A stretch of DNA of 62,199 nucleotides from a virus: positions 1-62,199 of the IMG/VR virus record IMGVR_UViG_3300024182_000003; one strand, written 5' to 3'. The position numbers were made by a program, and so were the translations under genes. The notes beneath the pieces are model-generated. The model saw nothing but the letters and a program-made list of their open reading frames with translations, had not been told where the DNA came from and made no database searches. Positions 23,007-62,199 of the stretch are shown piece by piece (within the stretch, counting starts at the first letter, position 1; each line of letters begins with the position of its first letter).

Positions 23007-23335
23007 TGAATCGCTTCCTTGACAAAGTTGGGAGGGAGATCGGTTATGTTCCGATTGATTGTGTATCAGGTACTAACTTGAACTTTGCCACATTTCAAGT
23101 TGTACCTGATGCGAACTTGTCACTTCAAGGTGATACTGACTCGGATGTCGAGTTACAAGTAAAAATGCCAGGAGGTGTGTTCGAGTCTTTACCTATTGAT
23201 CTTTCTACGTTTCCTCACAATGTCCCGTTATTAGTTGAAGTTAGAGCAGTTCCGTCAAATCTATTTACAGGTCGTAAGCGCCTGATGATGTTTCTTGGAG
23301 TAACCAGGAAAACGGAGGCGGGATGGAGGACGTGA
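23006..23335 (+). CDS. Hypothetical protein, 109 residues
   Basis: Beta-rich small protein coupled to the previous gene by TAATG. It contains a palindrome copy at 23119-23134, encoding Ser-Leu-Gln-Gly-Asp. Its stop overlaps the start of the receiver-domain gene. It may be a small tail protein. No motif recognised. Confidence 0.55.
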   Translation: MNRFLDKVGREIGYVPIDCVSGTNLNFATFQVVPDANLSLQGDTDSDVELQVKMPGGVFESLPIDLSTFPHNVPLLVEVRAVPSNLFTGRKRLMMFLGVTRKTEAGWRT

Positions 23336-23943
23336 TGAAACCTTGTAGCGCCGATGATCCTTGTTTACTGTTGATCGTGGAAGATGATAGCGCGATCAGA
23401 CGAATGTTTCATATTTGGCAAGAGGTTGGACGGTTAAAAGAAACGATCAATCTTGTATTTGCAAAGACGTGTCAGGAAGCAGTTGAAATCCTGAAGCAAC
23501 GTCACTTTGAAGTGATACTACTCGATTTGGCATTGTCTGATTCGAATGGTCTAGGGACGCTAGATATTATTGTCGCGTCAGTTAAAGATCAGGTTCCAGT
23601 TATTGTTTTTACAGGCGTACTACCAGAAGGGATAACTGAAGATGATATCTTACGCCACGGTGCTCAAGACATTATCTTTAAGCCTGGGCCACACATCGAA
23701 GAGATAATGCGGTTGATTAGGTATGCGGGTAGTAGGCATCGCATTCGAATTCATTACCTTGATGTGATAGCTCGTTTGCAAACAGAATGTGAGGAAGCAA
23801 AAGAAGCGCTGTCGCAGATTCAAGATCAGTGCCAATCTTGTCCGACTGTGCATCCAGAAGTTGCCCAAAGAGTCGCTACTGGTATTGGCATACAGAGACT
23901 GGAAAGAGTCATAAACCGAATTCAAGCACTAGCTGGATCGTAA
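23335..23943 (+). CDS. CheY-like receiver-domain protein
   Basis: 202 residues from the ATG at 23335 (GGAGG five bases upstream, overlapping the previous stop). Residues 10-118 form a complete response-regulator receiver domain. The acidic pair Asp17/Asp18, phospho-acceptor Asp64 in ILLDL, Thr93 in VFTG and Lys116 in FKPG are all present. The last ~75 residues are helical with a CxxC pair and no DNA-binding domain. Active-site completeness suggests phosphorylation or mimicry of a host two-component signal. A palindrome copy (23501-23516) lies inside. A receiver domain between tail and lysis genes is very unusual. Confidence 0.8.
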   Translation: MKPCSADDPCLLLIVEDDSAIRRMFHIWQEVGRLKETINLVFAKTCQEAVEILKQRHFEVILLDLALSDSNGLGTLDIIVASVKDQVPVIVFTGVLPEGITEDDILRHGAQDIIFKPGPHIEEIMRLIRYAGSRHRIRIHYLDVIARLQTECEEAKEALSQIQDQCQSCPTVHPEVAQRVATGIGIQRLERVINRIQALAGS

Positions 23944-23947
23944 TGCG

Positions 23948-24373
23948 ATGCTTATCGAATTTTTCCAGGATGTTCAGCAAATGGTTGAACATCACTGGCC
24001 GTATCTTGCTTTAGGTGTAATCAGTACAATACTAGGTACAATTTTAGCCAGTCCACTTATCGTCAAAATATATGAATCACGTAAAGCTAAAAAAGAAACT
24101 CTACATATTATTGATCGAGATGTAGAACTAAACAAGGATCAAGAACTTTATAAGATACGTGAGGAACTAAGAGCCGAAGTTGAAACTTTACGAGGAATTA
24201 GAGAACAGATTCTTGCCGAAAAAATGGAGCTTACGCATCAAAACTTTTTACTCGATGCAACTATTAAACAAATGAGAATTTATGAGACTGAGCTTGAAGA
24301 GGAAGTTGCATCTCGTGATAGAAGTATCGAGAAGCTTGAAGAGGAACTGCGAAAAGCGAAAGGAGTCGTATGA
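23948..24373 (+). CDS. Membrane-anchored coiled-coil protein, Rz-like spanin candidate
   Basis: 141 residues: one membrane helix at about residues 20-42 followed by roughly 90 residues of charged heptad-type helix. This topology (N-in, helix, long periplasmic coiled coil) matches inner-membrane spanins such as lambda Rz. The gene lies immediately before the lysozyme gene and overlaps it by 4 bases. A holin role is less likely because of the long coiled coil. Confidence 0.6.
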   Translation: MLIEFFQDVQQMVEHHWPYLALGVISTILGTILASPLIVKIYESRKAKKETLHIIDRDVELNKDQELYKIREELRAEVETLRGIREQILAEKMELTHQNFLLDATIKQMRIYETELEEEVASRDRSIEKLEEELRKAKGVV

Positions 24374-24840
24374 AACTCAGTGAAAACGGATTAGTGCTAC
24401 TTAAGCAGTGGGAGGGTTATGCAACTCACGCCTATCGTGATTCTGCAAATCTTCTCACTATCGGAGTTGGACATTTGTTGACTCGAAGTGAACTCACATC
24501 AGGGAAAATACTTATAGGTGGATCACCTGTTCGGTACAGAGACGGTCTGACAGATGATCAGATCGTTGCCTTACTTGCTCAAGACGTTATACCAGTGGAG
24601 CAAACTGTCTCGACTAACGTCAAGGTTTCTTTGAATCAGAATCAGTTCGATGCTTTGGTCTCATTTACATTCAACGTTGGGAGAGGGGCATTTCTCGGTA
24701 GTACGTTACTGAAGGTTCTCAACCAGGGGTTTTACACAGACGTGCCGACACAACTTGCTCGTTGGAATCGTTCTGGTGGACAAGTCGTACTCGGTTTAAC
24801 TAATCGCCGTAACAAAGAAATCGCCTTATGGAAGGCGTAG
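24370..24840 (+). CDS. Endolysin, T4-type lysozyme (GH24)
   Basis: 156 residues, the normal length. Catalytic triad candidates Glu15, Asp24 and Thr30 have exactly the spacing of T4 lysozyme (Glu11, Asp20, Thr26), in the context WEG, YRD and LTIGVGH. The C-terminal part reads like the family, with FNVG near the middle and a Thr-Asn-Arg-Arg-Asn-Lys-Glu end. It cleaves the MurNAc-GlcNAc bond of peptidoglycan. There is no signal peptide, so it needs a holin. The GGAG site is seven bases before the ATG. Confidence 0.9.
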   Translation: MKLSENGLVLLKQWEGYATHAYRDSANLLTIGVGHLLTRSELTSGKILIGGSPVRYRDGLTDDQIVALLAQDVIPVEQTVSTNVKVSLNQNQFDALVSFTFNVGRGAFLGSTLLKVLNQGFYTDVPTQLARWNRSGGQVVLGLTNRRNKEIALWKA

Positions 24841-49064: not shown

Positions 49065-49148
49065 ATGGCTAAAGCAAAAAAGACCGCTAAGAAAAAGAAG
49101 AAAGGCGCAGTTGGCAAAAAGAAGGGTGGTGGCGGTCGCACTGGATAA
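49065..49148 (+). CDS. 27-residue Lys/Gly-rich protein
   Basis: Starts nine bases after AAGGAG. Half of its residues are Lys, Gly or Arg. It is the first rightward gene. Its composition suggests an RNA- or DNA-binding peptide, possibly non-specific. One of three very basic micro-proteins in this region (with 52325 and 55994). Confidence 0.6.
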   Translation: MAKAKKTAKKKKKGAVGKKKGGGGRTG

Positions 49149-49215
49149 TCCCTTCCGGTAAAACAGATGAGGGATTCTATCTGTCGCGGGTAGAGTCCCT
49201 CGTTTGGTGTCTATT

Positions 49216-49908
49216 ATGGACGTATTAGCAGATTGTATTCAAAGGCTTGAAGTAGTGGCTAAGCGCACTGAGGGTAAGTTACTTGTGTCTTATTCTGGCG
49301 GAAAAGATAGTCTTGCAATTCTTGATATAGCTAGTCGAATCTTTGATCATATTGAATGCTTCTTTATGTACTTCCTGCCTGATATGCAATGCGTTCAACC
49401 GATGCTGAAGTTCGCCGAAGAAAACTATAAAGTTACAATTCATCAGTATCCGCATTGGGCTCTAGCTGTGTCACTTCGAGAAGGTATTTTTTGTGACAGT
49501 TATTATACTCTTGCTTCTCTTGATTGGTCATTGAAGGATATTTATACGCTTGTTGTTGACGATACTGAGATTCCTGCAATAGCTGTTGGTGCTAGGCGTA
49601 AAGAATCTCAGTGGCGTAGACGTACTATTAAGCAGATGGCGAAAATTAAGGAGGTTGTTTATCCTATTGAGAATTGGACAAAGCTCGATGTTATTGGATA
49701 TTTGAAGAGACGTGGATTACCTGTACCAAGATTAGATAAAGATGATCGCAGTGGTGTTGGCTTGTCGCCGGATCATATTCTTTGGTTGTATAAGCATTGG
49801 CCTCAAGATTACGCGAAGATAGTAAAGCGGTTTCCTTATATCGAAGCTGTGATTTGGAGAGAGAGATTCTATGGCGAAAGCGAAAAAGTCAGCGTCACCT
49901 CAGAGTGA
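49216..49908 (+). CDS. PAPS-reductase-like (PP-loop) protein
   Basis: 230 residues from the ATG at 49216. LVSYSGGKDSLAIL (about residues 21-34) is the PP-loop ATP-pyrophosphatase motif of the PAPS reductase/DndC family. AIAVGARRKESQWRR and a PIENWTKLDVIGYL segment follow, as in relatives of this group. It activates a substrate by adenylation in sulfur transfer or related chemistry. The gene ends Val-Thr-Ser-Glu-stop in the palindrome 49894-49909, and the ParB-like gene overlaps it by 38 bases, so the two are a unit. Confidence 0.85.
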   Translation: MDVLADCIQRLEVVAKRTEGKLLVSYSGGKDSLAILDIASRIFDHIECFFMYFLPDMQCVQPMLKFAEENYKVTIHQYPHWALAVSLREGIFCDSYYTLASLDWSLKDIYTLVVDDTEIPAIAVGARRKESQWRRRTIKQMAKIKEVVYPIENWTKLDVIGYLKRRGLPVPRLDKDDRSGVGLSPDHILWLYKHWPQDYAKIVKRFPYIEAVIWRERFYGESEKVSVTSE

Positions 49909-50608
49909 CACTGCTACTATATTTGACAATTATGTGATTGTCGAGATATATCGATCTGAGGCAAAGAATGCTCCCTATAATCCTCGTATCCTTTCTGCTT
50001 CTGCGCGAGAGAAATTACAAAAAGGGATTGATAAGTTTAAGTTATTAGGCCCACCGATTTGGAACCGAAAGACTGGAAATATTGTAGGTGGTCATCAGCG
50101 TCTTTCTATTTTAGACAGTCTTGCCGGTACAAAAGATTATCGATTAAAGGTTGCTGCTGTTGAGTTAAACGACAAACAAGAACGAGAAGCGAATATCTTA
50201 TTGAACAATCCTAATGCTCAGGGCGATTGGGATATCGAGAAACTTGGTGATTTACTTAAAGACCCTGAGATCGATATCGCTGGTACTGGATTTGGACTAG
50301 CTGATATTTACCGAATGTTTGGTGATGCACCGTTTCTTGATTCTGCCGAAAGAGCGGAAACTTTAGCTGCTGAGTTAAGGGAAGCTCGTGAACGTTGGGA
50401 AAAGATTACAAGTGCTGCGCAGGAAGAAGCTAGCGAAGAGTTTTATATCGTTGTGATCTTTGAGGACGGTAAGAAATTGATGAAGTTCTTTAAGATATTA
50501 GGACTTGAAGCTAATCGTTATCAGGATGCGCGAGATATTATACGTCACTTTCCAAAAGCTCTTCAGCCGTCGTTCGAATTGACTCCAAAGAAAGCTTCAA
50601 AAAAGTGA
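49871..50608 (+). CDS. ParB-like nuclease-domain protein
   Basis: 245 residues. Residues 35-110 form the ParB/sulfiredoxin-like domain: NAPYNPRILSASAREKLQKGI, then the signature NIVGGHQRL. The remaining ~120 residues are helical. It overlaps the PAPS-reductase-like gene and carries a palindrome copy in its first codons. PP-loop and ParB pairs (IbrA/IbrB-type) occur in prophages and mobile elements. What the pair does here is unknown. Confidence 0.8.
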   Translation: MAKAKKSASPQSDTATIFDNYVIVEIYRSEAKNAPYNPRILSASAREKLQKGIDKFKLLGPPIWNRKTGNIVGGHQRLSILDSLAGTKDYRLKVAAVELNDKQEREANILLNNPNAQGDWDIEKLGDLLKDPEIDIAGTGFGLADIYRMFGDAPFLDSAERAETLAAELREARERWEKITSAAQEEASEEFYIVVIFEDGKKLMKFFKILGLEANRYQDARDIIRHFPKALQPSFELTPKKASKK

Positions 50609-51058
50609 GTCCTGCGTCACTTCAGAGTTACGTTCAGGTAATGGATAGGCGTTGTATTCTTGAGAGTTTCTTTCGATTGCTTTTTGAAGGTCTGATGCGA
50701 ATACATAGTGGTCTCGATAGATATGTGCGATATCTACTTCCGGTAGAAGTTGAACTGCAATCTCGTGATGTCTATGACATTCGCCAGGAGCTTCTTCGAG
50801 GCATAACAGCAGTAGGTTCATTTGTTGATGTTCTCGGAGAAAATCTAATCCGGTTTGTTGAACTTGTTGGCCTCCTAGCTGCGGCATTGATATGTACTGT
50901 TCTTGAATGACTCTTTGTAAGTTGTAGAGTGAGAATTCAGGATTGCGGGAATAAGGCGAGCGCCTAGTGTCGATAAGCAGGTCAATATCGAGATGAGAAA
51001 TTATTCGGTTAAGGGATTCGGCTCTAGACAATCGTTGATATCCTATGCTCCAAATCAT
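50597..51058 (-). CDS. DUF488-family protein
   Basis: 153 residues on the opposite strand to its neighbours. It starts MIWSIGYQRLSRAESL, as typical DUF488 members do, and ends with LLCLEEAPGECHRHHEIA, the Cys/Glu/Cys-His signature of the family. The ATG at 51058 lies seven bases after a TATAAT box, so it is probably translated from a leaderless message. The reversed orientation and own promoter mark it as an inserted gene. A role in sulfur or redox chemistry with the neighbouring PP-loop gene is a hypothesis. Confidence 0.85.
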   Translation of the reverse strand: MIWSIGYQRLSRAESLNRIISHLDIDLLIDTRRSPYSRNPEFSLYNLQRVIQEQYISMPQLGGQQVQQTGLDFLREHQQMNLLLLCLEEAPGECHRHHEIAVQLLPEVDIAHIYRDHYVFASDLQKAIERNSQEYNAYPLPERNSEVTQDSLF

Positions 51059-51065
51059 AGGACTC

Positions 51066-51094
51066 ATTATATCACGAATATTGAGGATTGACAA
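51066..51094 (-). promoter_or_regulatory. Promoter for a leaderless DUF488 message
   Basis: On the minus strand TTGTCA (51089-51094) and TATAAT (51066-51071) are 17 bp apart, with extended TGA before the -10. Seven bases separate the -10 from the ATG at 51058. Confidence 0.88.
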
Positions 51095-51098
51095 GATT

Positions 51099-51527
51099 AT
51101 GCGGCTTAATAGACAACGACTTTCCGACGAAGAAAAGAGCAAGCGGTGTGTGTCTTGTGGTAAGTGTTGTATGATAATGTCGATCGATGGTGGTGAACTT
51201 ACCGAGGATAAAGAAGACGAGATACGGTGGGCAAAACTTCACGGTGTTATCATTGAGACCTTTACGTATCGAGGTAAGACGCATTTTTACTATACGATTC
51301 CTAAGCCGTGTAATGCTTTAGATATTTCAGAAGACGCGGACGGACAAAAGCAATACAGGTGCAGTATTTATAATACACGTCCTCAAGTGTGCGTAGATTA
51401 TGATGGTGACGATGCACCTCCAGTCGGAATTACTGATTGTGCTTGGCGAACTGAGCCGTTATCTAAGTCTTTTGATGTTGGTTATCAATTCGTGCAAATT
51501 GAAAAAGCTTCAAGCGAAAGAGCTTGA
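51099..51527 (+). CDS. YkgJ-like cysteine-cluster protein 1
   Basis: 142 residues from the ATG at 51099; an earlier start would overlap the DUF488 promoter. CVSCGKCC (residues 16-23), the later CSIYNTRPQVC and a final DCAW form the cysteine pattern of the YkgJ/zinc-or-iron-chelating family. Function of the family is not settled; it is usually linked to metal binding. It lies beside a second member of the family (51746). Confidence 0.8.
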   Translation: MRLNRQRLSDEEKSKRCVSCGKCCMIMSIDGGELTEDKEDEIRWAKLHGVIIETFTYRGKTHFYYTIPKPCNALDISEDADGQKQYRCSIYNTRPQVCVDYDGDDAPPVGITDCAWRTEPLSKSFDVGYQFVQIEKASSERA

Positions 51528-51528
51528 A

Positions 51529-51717
51529 ATGGTTAGCGATGAGATTGTCTTCATTCACGTTGTTAGTCACGAGATCAGAAATGTACGTCTTGCTTTTAAT
51601 CCTGGTTTGTATAAGTATTCACACTGTGATGAATGTGGCGATCACGCAATGGTAATTTTCTATGATGGTTTACATTTCGCTGTCAAATGTCATCGACATA
51701 TTGTAGAGCTTGCATAG
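51529..51717 (+). CDS. 62-residue zinc-binding protein
   Basis: Starts two bases after the previous stop. HCDECGDH in its middle, followed by CHRH, is a zinc-binding arrangement. It sits between the two YkgJ-like genes and may work with them. Confidence 0.6.
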   Translation: MVSDEIVFIHVVSHEIRNVRLAFNPGLYKYSHCDECGDHAMVIFYDGLHFAVKCHRHIVELA

Positions 51718-51738
51718 ATAGGTTTTTCGTGGTATAAT
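51710..51738 (+). promoter_or_regulatory. Promoter for a leaderless YkgJ message
   Basis: TTGCAT (51710-51715) and a perfect TATAAT (51733-51738) are 17 bp apart, with extended TGG before the -10. Seven bases separate it from the ATG at 51746. Confidence 0.88.
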
Positions 51739-51745
51739 CGTAGCT

Positions 51746-52135
51746 ATGTCGATCCTTAAGAAGCTTCCAGTATTGTATGATTGCGATAAATGCCCTGCTT
51801 GGTGTTGTACGTATGAAGAGATCGAGATTTCAGATAAAGAGATTCAACGAATTGCCGATCATTTCAAAATTTCTTTTACTACTGCGAGGCGTCGATTTAC
51901 TCAGGCTACCGAAGAGGGTGATGGACGGAGCTTATCTATTATTCCTGATCCTGATCCTGATTACTTCGGCAAAGCTTGTGTGTTTCTTGATCTTGGAAAA
52001 CGGTTCTGTACTATTTACGAAGTGCGTCCTCAAGTATGTAGATCATTTCCGTATGCCAAGCACTGCGGTTATTGGGACTTTCTAAAGTTTCAACGTAAGC
52101 ACGCTTTAGATGATAAACTTATCGCAAAGACCTAA
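51746..52135 (+). CDS. YkgJ-like cysteine-cluster protein 2
   Basis: 129 residues. CDKCPAWCC near the start and CTIYEVRPQVCRSFP later match the YkgJ pattern closely, with another Cys at residue 77 and one after the second cluster. It has no Shine-Dalgarno site and starts seven bases after the -10, so it is probably leaderless. The next frame begins in the TAATG overlap. Confidence 0.85.
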   Translation: MSILKKLPVLYDCDKCPAWCCTYEEIEISDKEIQRIADHFKISFTTARRRFTQATEEGDGRSLSIIPDPDPDYFGKACVFLDLGKRFCTIYEVRPQVCRSFPYAKHCGYWDFLKFQRKHALDDKLIAKT

Positions 52136-58088: not shown

Positions 58089-58187
58089 TCTATTTAAGGT
58101 GTTACGATGATGAGGGCTAAACTGGTACGAAAATGGGGTCGTACTAGATTATCGTAACATCTTTTGTCACTTCGGAGTGACGTAAGG

Positions 58188-59885
58188 GTGCAACGGAGAG
58201 ACTTTTTACACGGTAGTGCCGCAAGCTTAGCCGCAGGACTCTTAACTCCTACCATCGATCTTATAGGTTCTCGCCCTGAATCAGCCGCTGAATCCTTTTG
58301 TCGTGATCTCGCATCAGCCTTAGCTCCGAATATAGGTGTACAGCAACCGTTTATTGATTGGTTGCCCGGTGCTTCACCTTCTACTTGGCGCTTCGATGGA
58401 GCAAACGTAAGATTTCAGGCAGCGAAACTTCAAGAACTGCTTCACGGTGGATGCGATAAGGGTCATATCAATTACTTACGTTTGACTGTAGGTGCCGAAT
58501 GTCCTATCGAGACTTGTAGCGGTAAGATTGAAGGCCCAGGCATTAAGGATTATGACGGTAAACGTAAGCGGAGGATGATGCTATTTGAACCTCCGCGTCA
58601 CTTTAAGACCGAGACTGTTACAGTTCGCTTTCCCGTCTACTTTATGCAGGACAATCCAGTAAGACGTGTTCTGCTTTCGTCGTATAATCAAGACTTCACG
58701 AATAAAGTCTCTCGTAAGATGAGGCGAGTTGCTGAAGGTCGCCTTGACATCATTGGCAAGCTCGTACAAGATTGGGAACTTCAACAAGGCGGTGGAGTAA
58801 CTGCGCGAGGTGTTGGTGCTGGCGCGGCAGGATTAGGCGCACATCTAATTATTATCGATGATCCTATTAAGAGTCACGCTGAGGCAAACTCGCCTACTTA
58901 TCGTGAGGGTATTTGGGAATGGTGGAGTGACGAAATATTTACTCGACAAGAGCCTGAGATTGAAGGTGGCGAAGCTTTAATGATCTTAATGTTTGCTCGT
59001 TGGCACGAGGATGATTTAGCTGGCCGTATAATGGACTCCGAAGATGCCGAAGAGTGGGCCGTTATTAACGTTCCTGCTGAAGCTGAGACGCAAGAAGAGC
59101 GAGACTATTGGGCGAAGAAATGGGGATTAGAGCATCACGTTGGTCAACCCGATCCTTTGGGACGCCAACCAGGAGAAGCGTTAGACGAAGATCGGTTTCC
59201 ATCGAAGAAACTTGAGAAGTTCAAGAAGGTCGTTATTGGATATTCAGGACTTTATCAAGGTCGTCCACGTAGAAAGCAAGGGCGAAGATTTCAAGAAGAA
59301 TGGTTCAATCATCGTGTCAAGTGGGATCAAGTACCTAAACGCAATATGGTTTGGGTACGCTATTGGGATAAAGCAGGAACTGAAGGTGGAGGTAAGCGAA
59401 CGGCAGGTGTGTTGATGGGAATTCATCAGCCTACGCTTATGGTTTACGTCGCTGATTCTCATTGCGGACAGTGGGAAGCACATAAACGTGAACGTGAGAT
59501 CAAGAACGTGGCTTTAGCCGATAGTATTCGTTTTGGAAGTAAGAGCGAAGTAACTATTTACGTTGAGCAAGAACCAGGATCAGGCGGATTAGAGTCCGCG
59601 ATGAATACTGTTAAGAATCTAATCGGGTATAAGTGTTATAGACGATCACCTCAAGGTAATAAGGCAGCGCGAGCAGAACCTTTCGAATTTTATGCTTCAA
59701 ACTCGATGGTTATTCTTGTACAGGGGCCGTGGATTAAGAGTTGGCTTGACGAACACCTTGACTTTTCAGAAGATGCGTTGTTTACTGATCAGGTTGATGC
59801 CACGTCAGGTGCTTTCGGTGAGCTTGCAATAGTTGCGGAGATTGATGAAGATGTCGGAAGTGTTGGAGGATCAGTCTTCGGTTGA
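58188..59885 (+). CDS. terL: Large terminase subunit
   Basis: 565 residues from the GTG at 58188; a TTG at 58164 would start inside the palindrome. ATPase: Walker A-like EPPRHFKTET (about 134-143), with Phe where Gly is usual, and Walker B LIIIDDP (220-226). Nuclease domain: WVRYWDKAGT begins the RNase H-like fold with a catalytic Asp, and later acidic residues near Gln-Val-Asp complete it. It packages DNA into the head and cuts it. The first ~25 residues resemble a Tat signal (RRDFL then a hydrophobic stretch), odd for a terminase. Confidence 0.92.
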   Translation: MQRRDFLHGSAASLAAGLLTPTIDLIGSRPESAAESFCRDLASALAPNIGVQQPFIDWLPGASPSTWRFDGANVRFQAAKLQELLHGGCDKGHINYLRLTVGAECPIETCSGKIEGPGIKDYDGKRKRRMMLFEPPRHFKTETVTVRFPVYFMQDNPVRRVLLSSYNQDFTNKVSRKMRRVAEGRLDIIGKLVQDWELQQGGGVTARGVGAGAAGLGAHLIIIDDPIKSHAEANSPTYREGIWEWWSDEIFTRQEPEIEGGEALMILMFARWHEDDLAGRIMDSEDAEEWAVINVPAEAETQEERDYWAKKWGLEHHVGQPDPLGRQPGEALDEDRFPSKKLEKFKKVVIGYSGLYQGRPRRKQGRRFQEEWFNHRVKWDQVPKRNMVWVRYWDKAGTEGGGKRTAGVLMGIHQPTLMVYVADSHCGQWEAHKREREIKNVALADSIRFGSKSEVTIYVEQEPGSGGLESAMNTVKNLIGYKCYRRSPQGNKAARAEPFEFYASNSMVILVQGPWIKSWLDEHLDFSEDALFTDQVDATSGAFGELAIVAEIDEDVGSVGGSVFG

Positions 59886-61805: not shown

Positions 61806-62199
61806 ATGAATTCGTTTATCCGACAAGCTGTTGTTCAACAACAAGACGCATTTGCTGAGCAAGTACGTAAGCTCGCAGAGATACTTGAACGAAGTGGAAA
61901 TACCGATGCTTGGCAAACCAGGATGCAAGCTGCGATTCGGCAAAACATCTTAGAGCAAGCTCGTAATGTAATCCAGGCACGACTGCCAAACGGTGTTGGT
62001 GATATAGCGGCGAAGTTACTTCTTCAAGACGTTAAGTATCTGAATCGGTTTCGAAATGAGATTGATCGAAAGCTTGTTACTGACGAACTCAGTGTTGATG
62101 GTGTCGCTAATCGAAGTAGTCTGTATGGTCGTACTGGCATACAGATGGCGTGGATCATTGATGAGTCGCTTGAGATTGACGGTATCAATGAAGACGATC
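61806..62199 (+). CDS. MuF-like minor head protein, N-terminal part
   Basis: Starts at an ATG whose TG lies in the palindrome 61792-61807. 131 codons are visible; the gene continues at base 2 of the window through the terminal repeat. Gln/Arg-rich N-terminal helices and the position after the portal gene fit the MuF family; the diagnostic cysteine motif is in the C-terminal part (2-391). Confidence 0.7.
   Translation, partial: MNSFIRQAVVQQQDAFAEQVRKLAEILERSGNTDAWQTRMQAAIRQNILEQARNVIQARLPNGVGDIAAKLLLQDVKYLNRFRNEIDRKLVTDELSVDGVANRSSLYGRTGIQMAWIIDESLEIDGINEDD
62075..62199. repeat. Terminal direct repeat, right copy
   Basis: Identical to bases 1-125. It keeps the MuF frame intact when the ends are joined, so the unique genome length is 62,074 bases. 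Confidence 0.95.

Follow-up and report, generated by a model that had tools for sequence, protein, structure and literature searches.

A recurrent phage module of PP-loop and ParB-like genes with an ASCH or DUF488 gene in a convergent position

Background

Among pairs of a PAPS-reductase-like and a ParB-like protein, the one whose role is best known from experiment is IbrA/IbrB of E. coli ECOR-9, which activates the eib prophage genes (Sandt 2002, as related in PMC10434257); its members have been termed 'co activators of prophage gene expression' (PMC4490671). ParB-like ATPases and PP-loop enzymes also take part in DNA modification, in the Dpd, Dnd and BREX type 4 systems (PMC12839542, PMC10853773). 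A survey of ParB-fold proteins further reported a ParB-DUF488-HTH fusion that binds CTP, as well as ParB-ASCH fusions that are enriched in archaea (PMC12704722), an independent line of evidence that ties both partner domains to ParB-like proteins. ASCH domains are described in some accounts as binding modified DNA and elsewhere are predicted to do so. In phage genomes the labels 'PAPS reductase' and 'ParB' are common; they are probably misleading, and in the genomes considered here they mark one module.

The locus and its genome

The DNA analysed (the window) is the whole stretch of 62,199 bases of the IMG/VR virus record IMGVR_UViG_3300024182_000003. An exact 125-bp direct repeat is common to both ends of the window, which is therefore likely to represent a whole circular-mapping genome, about 62,074 bp in size, and the head and tail genes, terminase and endolysin carried by the record identify the phage as a tailed phage. 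Close relatives of the phage were sought in IMG/VR by TerL, the DUF488 protein or the second YkgJ protein, with no useful result.

A first-pass annotation had described six genes in this region, namely overlapping PP-loop and ParB-like genes, an inverted DUF488 gene, and a mini-protein gene lying between two YkgJ genes, and this layout is borne out by gene calls and by Pfam and phrog matches (Table 1). The same annotation had regarded the cassette as unfamiliar in phage. That holds for the full six-gene combination, which was found only in the window, but not for the PP-loop/ParB-like pair, which is widespread in phages.

Table 1. Positions of the genes and of the promoter-like element in the window
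Feature	Coordinates	Strand	Basis
PP-loop ATPase, PAPS-reductase/CysD superfamily (core gene 1)	49216..49908	+	PF01507 7.6e-13; phrog_424
ParB/Srx-like NTP-binding protein (core gene 2)	49871..50608	+	phrog_9353 4e-46; phrog_620 (ParB-like) 2e-21
DUF488 protein (convergent accessory gene)	50597..51067	-	PF04343 2.5e-8
Promoter-like TTGTCA-17-TGnTATAAT for DUF488	51066..51094	-	11/12, consensus match only
YkgJ-type CxxCxxCC protein 1	51099..51527	+	PF03692 3.5e-7
Cys/His mini-protein, 62 aa	51529..51717	+	ORF
YkgJ-type protein 2	51746..52135	+	PF03692 7e-14
Terminase large subunit	58164..59885	+	phrog_38 2.5e-65

The genes are tightly arranged. The PP-loop gene, for which an alternative TTG start at 49204 is possible, overlaps the ParB-like gene by 38 bp, and the ParB-like gene in turn shares its last 12 bp, tail to tail, with the DUF488 gene. 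The DUF488 gene starts at 51067 or 51058, and the first YkgJ gene begins, divergently, 32 bp from the DUF488 start. Judged from the promoter-like element, the predicted DUF488 transcription start would lie near the ATG at 51058, possibly giving a leaderless transcript.

Recurrence of the PP-loop/ParB-like pair

The PP-loop and ParB-like genes form a conserved, recurrent two-gene phage module, which spans phages of Bacteroidota, Firmicutes, Proteobacteria and others. Relatives of the PP-loop protein occur in 26 cultured-phage records out of 50,697 phage records, each match covering at least 80% of the protein; the ParB-like matches are dominated by the same phages and adjoin the PP-loop gene in nearly all of them. 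Plasmid records gave zero matches to the PP-loop protein. Among 80 IMG/VR loci (given below as L numbers) that were retrieved with the ParB-like profile alone, a PP-loop gene was detected in all except L023, L058 and L070, usually overlapping the ParB-like gene; the first two of these exceptions have the ParB gene at the edge of the contig. A search of GTDB, with one genome per species, yielded 80 further ParB-like loci from many phyla. In the IMG/VR and GTDB loci taken together, the PP-loop partner stands beside 105 of 125 ParB-like frames shorter than 340 aa, compared with 7 of 38 longer ones.

The pair commonly lies just upstream of the terminase genes. In the relatives TerL is mostly 0.3-3.5 kb from the pair, and it was found within 4 kb in at least 34 of 66 loci, a lower bound obtained with eight query proteins. 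In Bacteroides phage BS-TP2, Lactobacillus phage LR1 and Riemerella phage RAP44 the pair is directly upstream of the small and large terminase genes; in Pasteurella phage Pm86 the PP-loop gene keeps the terminase synteny, and a ParB-like relative was not detected there. In the window the PP-loop gene likewise sits directly upstream of a ParB-like gene of about 240 aa on the same strand, and TerL follows downstream on that strand, but at 7.5 kb and with other genes in between, as against the shorter spacing of the relatives.

A separate observation concerns a 16-bp palindrome, GTCACTYYRRAGTGAC, of which the window holds 51 copies at two or fewer mismatches where 2.9 are expected. The copies recur about every 1.2 kb throughout the genome and are concentrated at gene junctions, with 10 of 39 close matches lying inside genes against 31 expected; copies stand at 49894 (the PP-loop/ParB-like junction), 50616 (past the ParB-like stop) and 52137 (past the second YkgJ gene). 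In cluster O mycobacteriophages a 17-bp palindrome of a similar kind, whose function is unknown, has been described (PMC4351075). A search for relatives by this palindrome yielded 15 contigs, each with a single copy, and clustered copies turned up in L046 when loci of 9-16 kb were scanned for palindromes without bias. A general link between such a palindrome and the ParB-like protein was considered and rejected, as the exact motif was present in 0 of 174 loci searched and the unbiased scan gave a clear repeated palindrome in L066 only.

The PP-loop and ParB-like proteins

The AlphaFold2 model of the PP-loop protein is confident (pLDDT 91), and its Foldseek matches include TtuA, LarE, CysD, TilS and APS reductase, with TM-scores of about 0.5. 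The model thus resembles the PP-loop ATPase fold generally, so that thiolation, adenylation and ligation are not distinguished by fold. Across 34 homologues S31 and G33 are invariant, while K34 is kept in 97% and D35 in 88%; G129, P154, W158 and D202 are invariant as well. No cysteine is invariant among these 34 homologues. This rules out, as properties of the family as a whole, both a catalytic cysteine of the CysH type and a cluster of the DndC type, and the catalytic C-terminal cysteine motif of CysH is accordingly absent. Comparison with NCBIfam models gave 13 bits for DndC (cut-off 290) and 17 bits for CysH (cut-off 165), and PADLOC returned weak matches to BrxP (9e-7) and DndC (0.002).

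These findings bear on the usual annotation, by which the protein is a true PAPS reductase serving auxiliary sulfate assimilation. The Pfam name of PF01507 and phage papers that label the gene an AMG (PMC10434257) speak for it, whereas the missing CysH motif, the CysH score and a near-obligate ParB partner speak against it and leave it scarcely credible; true sulfate assimilation was rejected because the catalytic cysteine is missing. The same evidence weighs on cysteine-dependent thiolation, phosphorothioate-like or yielding a thio-base, as a trait of the sub-clade to which the window belongs. Cys63 and Cys97 of the window protein are kept in the relatives nearest to it (of the 34 homologues, 11 have C63 and 18 have C97), the fold is common to the thiolases TtuA and LarE, and the weak BrxP and DndC matches point the same way. 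Neither cysteine is family-wide, however, the Fe-S cysteine set is absent, the DndC score falls far below its cut-off, and a cysteine desulfurase (PF00266; DndA/IscS), which the host could supply, is absent from the whole record. Thiolation of this kind is accordingly judged improbable.

The ParB-like protein carries a GGHQR box at residues 73-77, in which R77, the box II arginine, is invariant in 12 relatives; the P-motif arginine is required for NTP binding in those ParB-fold relatives that have been tested (PMC12704722). The family profile matches the ParB structure 4umk of the PDB at 4e-4. A Pfam search of this short protein, whose C-terminus differs from that of canonical ParB, returned neither a ParB nor an HTH match. 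The main rival to a modification role is a regulator of the IbrAB kind, in which the PP-loop and ParB-like proteins would jointly co-activate phage or host genes and no modification enzyme would be involved. Beyond the precedent of IbrA and IbrB themselves, it draws on the ability of ParB-fold proteins to act as NTP-dependent switches (PMC12704722). Against it, the conserved catalytic residues of the PP-loop protein suggest enzymology, and a DNA-binding domain was not identified in the ParB-like protein; such a regulator is considered unlikely, while still deserving serious weight.

An exchangeable gene in the convergent position

The inverted DUF488 gene belongs to the PP-loop/ParB-like module. 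Its product scores 35 bits against PF04343 (cut-off 22.2) and contains the CxE..CHR motif; its AlphaFold2 model is confident (pLDDT 90) and shows an alpha/beta fold, for which a search of PDB and viral structures gave no confident match. In relatives, Pfam and profile searches showed that an ASCH gene (PUA-like, PF04266) often fills the same tail-to-tail position past the ParB-like stop, and a DUF488-superfamily gene occupies this slot, as in the window, in L014, L016-L018, L019 and L027.

When the pair loci were made non-redundant at 80% ParB identity, 83 loci remained. The convergent slot just past the ParB-like gene holds an ASCH gene in 19 and a DUF488-type gene in 5 (the window included) of the 82 loci with 1 kb of downstream sequence. 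Within 3 kb, ASCH is found in 31 of the 83 loci, a DUF488-type gene in 8, and both together in none (Fisher p=0.023); an accessory gene is absent from 44 of the 83, some of which are truncated. With the window excluded, the slot holds 20 of 37 ASCH matches and 4 of 10 DUF488-type matches where 5.1% would be expected, this being the slot's share of the strand-length searched (p=1e-16 for ASCH and 0.001 for DUF488-type), p-values that serve as guides rather than exact figures because uniform placement is assumed and the DUF488-type matches are partly hand-picked. Beyond the Pfam matches, members of that set were chosen from the C-x-[ED]...CHR motif together with visual inspection, most of them then being run against Pfam, and this selection is a weakness: L016-L018 and L019 score above the PF04343 cut-off, L027 above that of DUF488-N3a only, and L014 just below both. 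The ASCH assignments in L002 and L004 lack Pfam confirmation at E 0.5, that in L004 resting solely on a locally built profile.

In an incomplete sample of the literature no published account of a PP-loop/ParB/ASCH-or-DUF488 arrangement was found. The pair is already known by annotation, and the exchangeable ASCH/DUF488 third gene appears to be undescribed.

The YkgJ genes and the mini-protein

The two YkgJ proteins match PF03692 at 31 and 53 bits (cut-off 23) and align with each other only over a C-x-IY-x-x-RPQVC motif, and Pfam and phrog searches matched no family to the mini-protein. The first-pass annotation had joined them with the PP-loop, ParB-like and DUF488 proteins in a possible sulfur/metal system. 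That the genes adjoin in the window, with a YkgJ gene starting so close to the DUF488 gene and divergent from it, is consistent with a joint role of all five proteins (PP-loop, ParB-like, DUF488 and the two YkgJ) in the chemistry of sulfur or metals. Among 50 pair-bearing records, on the other hand, PF03692 occurs in two, about 20 kb and about 48 kb from the pair and never adjacent to it; both YkgJ proteins gave zero matches among 50,697 phage records, and a YkgJ motif search over all pair loci was positive in the window alone. Such a larger system is therefore very unlikely, and YkgJ was rejected as a system member. Neither the YkgJ genes nor the mini-protein gene recur with the pair; the YkgJ genes are probably neighbours outside the module and, with the mini-protein gene, most likely independent cargo inserted between the module and the terminase.

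The sulfur/metal proposal as a whole is not supported, because no PP-loop cysteine is invariant and the record encodes no cysteine desulfurase; the scores far below the DndC and CysH cut-offs agree with this. The gene-neighbourhood analysis that the annotation had suggested gave a divided answer: PP-loop, ParB-like and DUF488 genes recur together, whereas YkgJ genes occur independently in relatives.

Proposed function

A role in nucleic-acid modification is a reasonable hypothesis for the module. On the preferred reading, held tentatively, the PP-loop protein would carry out an ATP-dependent modification of nucleic acid, with the ParB-like protein loading or gating it and the ASCH or DUF488 protein acting as its reader or controller, so that DNA is guarded around packaging. 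The PP-loop protein would adenylate a nucleic-acid target, of phage or host, and complete the modification, while the ParB-like protein might load on DNA or use NTP to gate the reaction. Reading, limiting or reversing the mark would then fall to the ASCH or DUF488 protein. The mark itself would either protect late-stage phage DNA against restriction by the host or change nucleic acid of the host. A place beside the packaging genes would, however, fit takeover of the host, or any other late role, as well.

It is more doubtful that these genes constitute a new, widespread phage modification system composed of a PP-loop adenylating enzyme, a ParB-like NTPase and a convergent ASCH-or-DUF488 reader or partner. 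If they do, DUF488 would be the functional counterpart of a modified-base-binding PUA-like domain; since a search of the PDB gave its model no confident match, the reader role of DUF488 is guessed from where its gene lies. A modification system of this kind would amount to a new anti-restriction strategy, possibly with a new base or backbone modification. The exchange of ASCH and DUF488 at the convergent position offers a concrete and testable clue that the module handles modified nucleic acid, and provides a context for DUF488.

Comparison with known systems

Several described systems share parts of this arrangement. Lambda NinC is likewise a phage PP-loop protein annotated as a PAPS reductase, but no ParB partner is annotated in the stretch examined, and kinship was rejected, the alignment being confined to the PP-loop motif (score -0.3 bits). 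The Dnd/Ssp phosphorothioation systems, through DndC and DndB, also combine a PP-loop enzyme with a ParB-superfamily protein; the phage module differs in that it lacks conserved Fe-S or dyad cysteines and that the window encodes no cysteine desulfurase, and membership in Dnd was rejected on the cysteines and the scores. Dpd, with its ParB-like ATPase DpdB, and BREX type 4, with BrxP, each employ a ParB-like ATPase or a PP-loop enzyme in DNA modification, but they have single components alone in common with the phage module, which is much smaller.

Closer in their domain partners are the ParB-DUF488 and ParB-ASCH fusions (PMC12704722), which join to ParB the same domains that fill the accessory slot, whereas in the module these are encoded by separate convergent genes and a PP-loop partner is present. 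In gene order, IbrA/IbrB and the phage pairs of RAP44, BS-TP2 and LR1 resemble the window, with the PP-loop gene followed by an adjacent or overlapping ParB-like gene. The three phage pairs lie just upstream of the terminase, which in the window is displaced by about 7.5 kb, and the window differs from all of these pairs in the convergent DUF488 gene attached to its own.

Genome ends and features around the module

Positions 1-125 are identical to 62075-62199, an exact 125-bp direct repeat at the window ends, so that the genome in this record is probably complete and circular-mapping, with a length of about 62,074 bp. The 27-codon frame upstream of the PP-loop gene is accompanied by a perfect AAGGAG site, and the promoter match at the DUF488 gene suggests that its mRNA could possibly be leaderless. 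Elsewhere, an endolysin gene (24370-24840) lies near that of the receiver domain.

Features of the window and of L066, another PP-loop/ParB phage
Feature	Position	Remarks
Phage-encoded response-regulator receiver domain	23323-23943	PF00072, 9e-14
Lysine-rich frame MAKAKKTAKKKKKGAVGKKKGGGGRTG	49065-49148	27 codons
20-pair hairpin	49164-49206	after MAKAKKTAKKKKKGAVGKKKGGGGRTG frame, immediately ahead of PP-loop gene
Extended -10 promoter match, strong	51058-51094	predicted start at ATG of DUF488 (MIWSIGYQ)
GTCACTYYRRAGTGAC palindrome, example copies	48870, 48981, 49894, 50616, 52137, 58166	
TTTCGT(C/G)ACGAAA in L066	536, 3949, 7306, 10180, 12696	~3 kb spacing

A recurrent palindrome

The GTCACTYYRRAGTGAC palindrome occurs in 51 copies across the whole window, against 2.9 expected (at most 2 mismatches), spaced at about 1.2 kb; most copies lie at stop/start junctions, often overlaying the Shine-Dalgarno GGAG. 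It is a candidate operator, stoperator or start-associated site. L066 carries five exact copies of its own palindrome (0.05 expected). Among the long ParB-like frames of related loci (at least 340 aa, L123-L173), which are probably ParB-methyltransferase fusions, 7 of 38 have a PP-loop gene and most are without one. Palindromes similar to the window's, 17 bp in length, are present in cluster O mycobacteriophages (PMC4351075).
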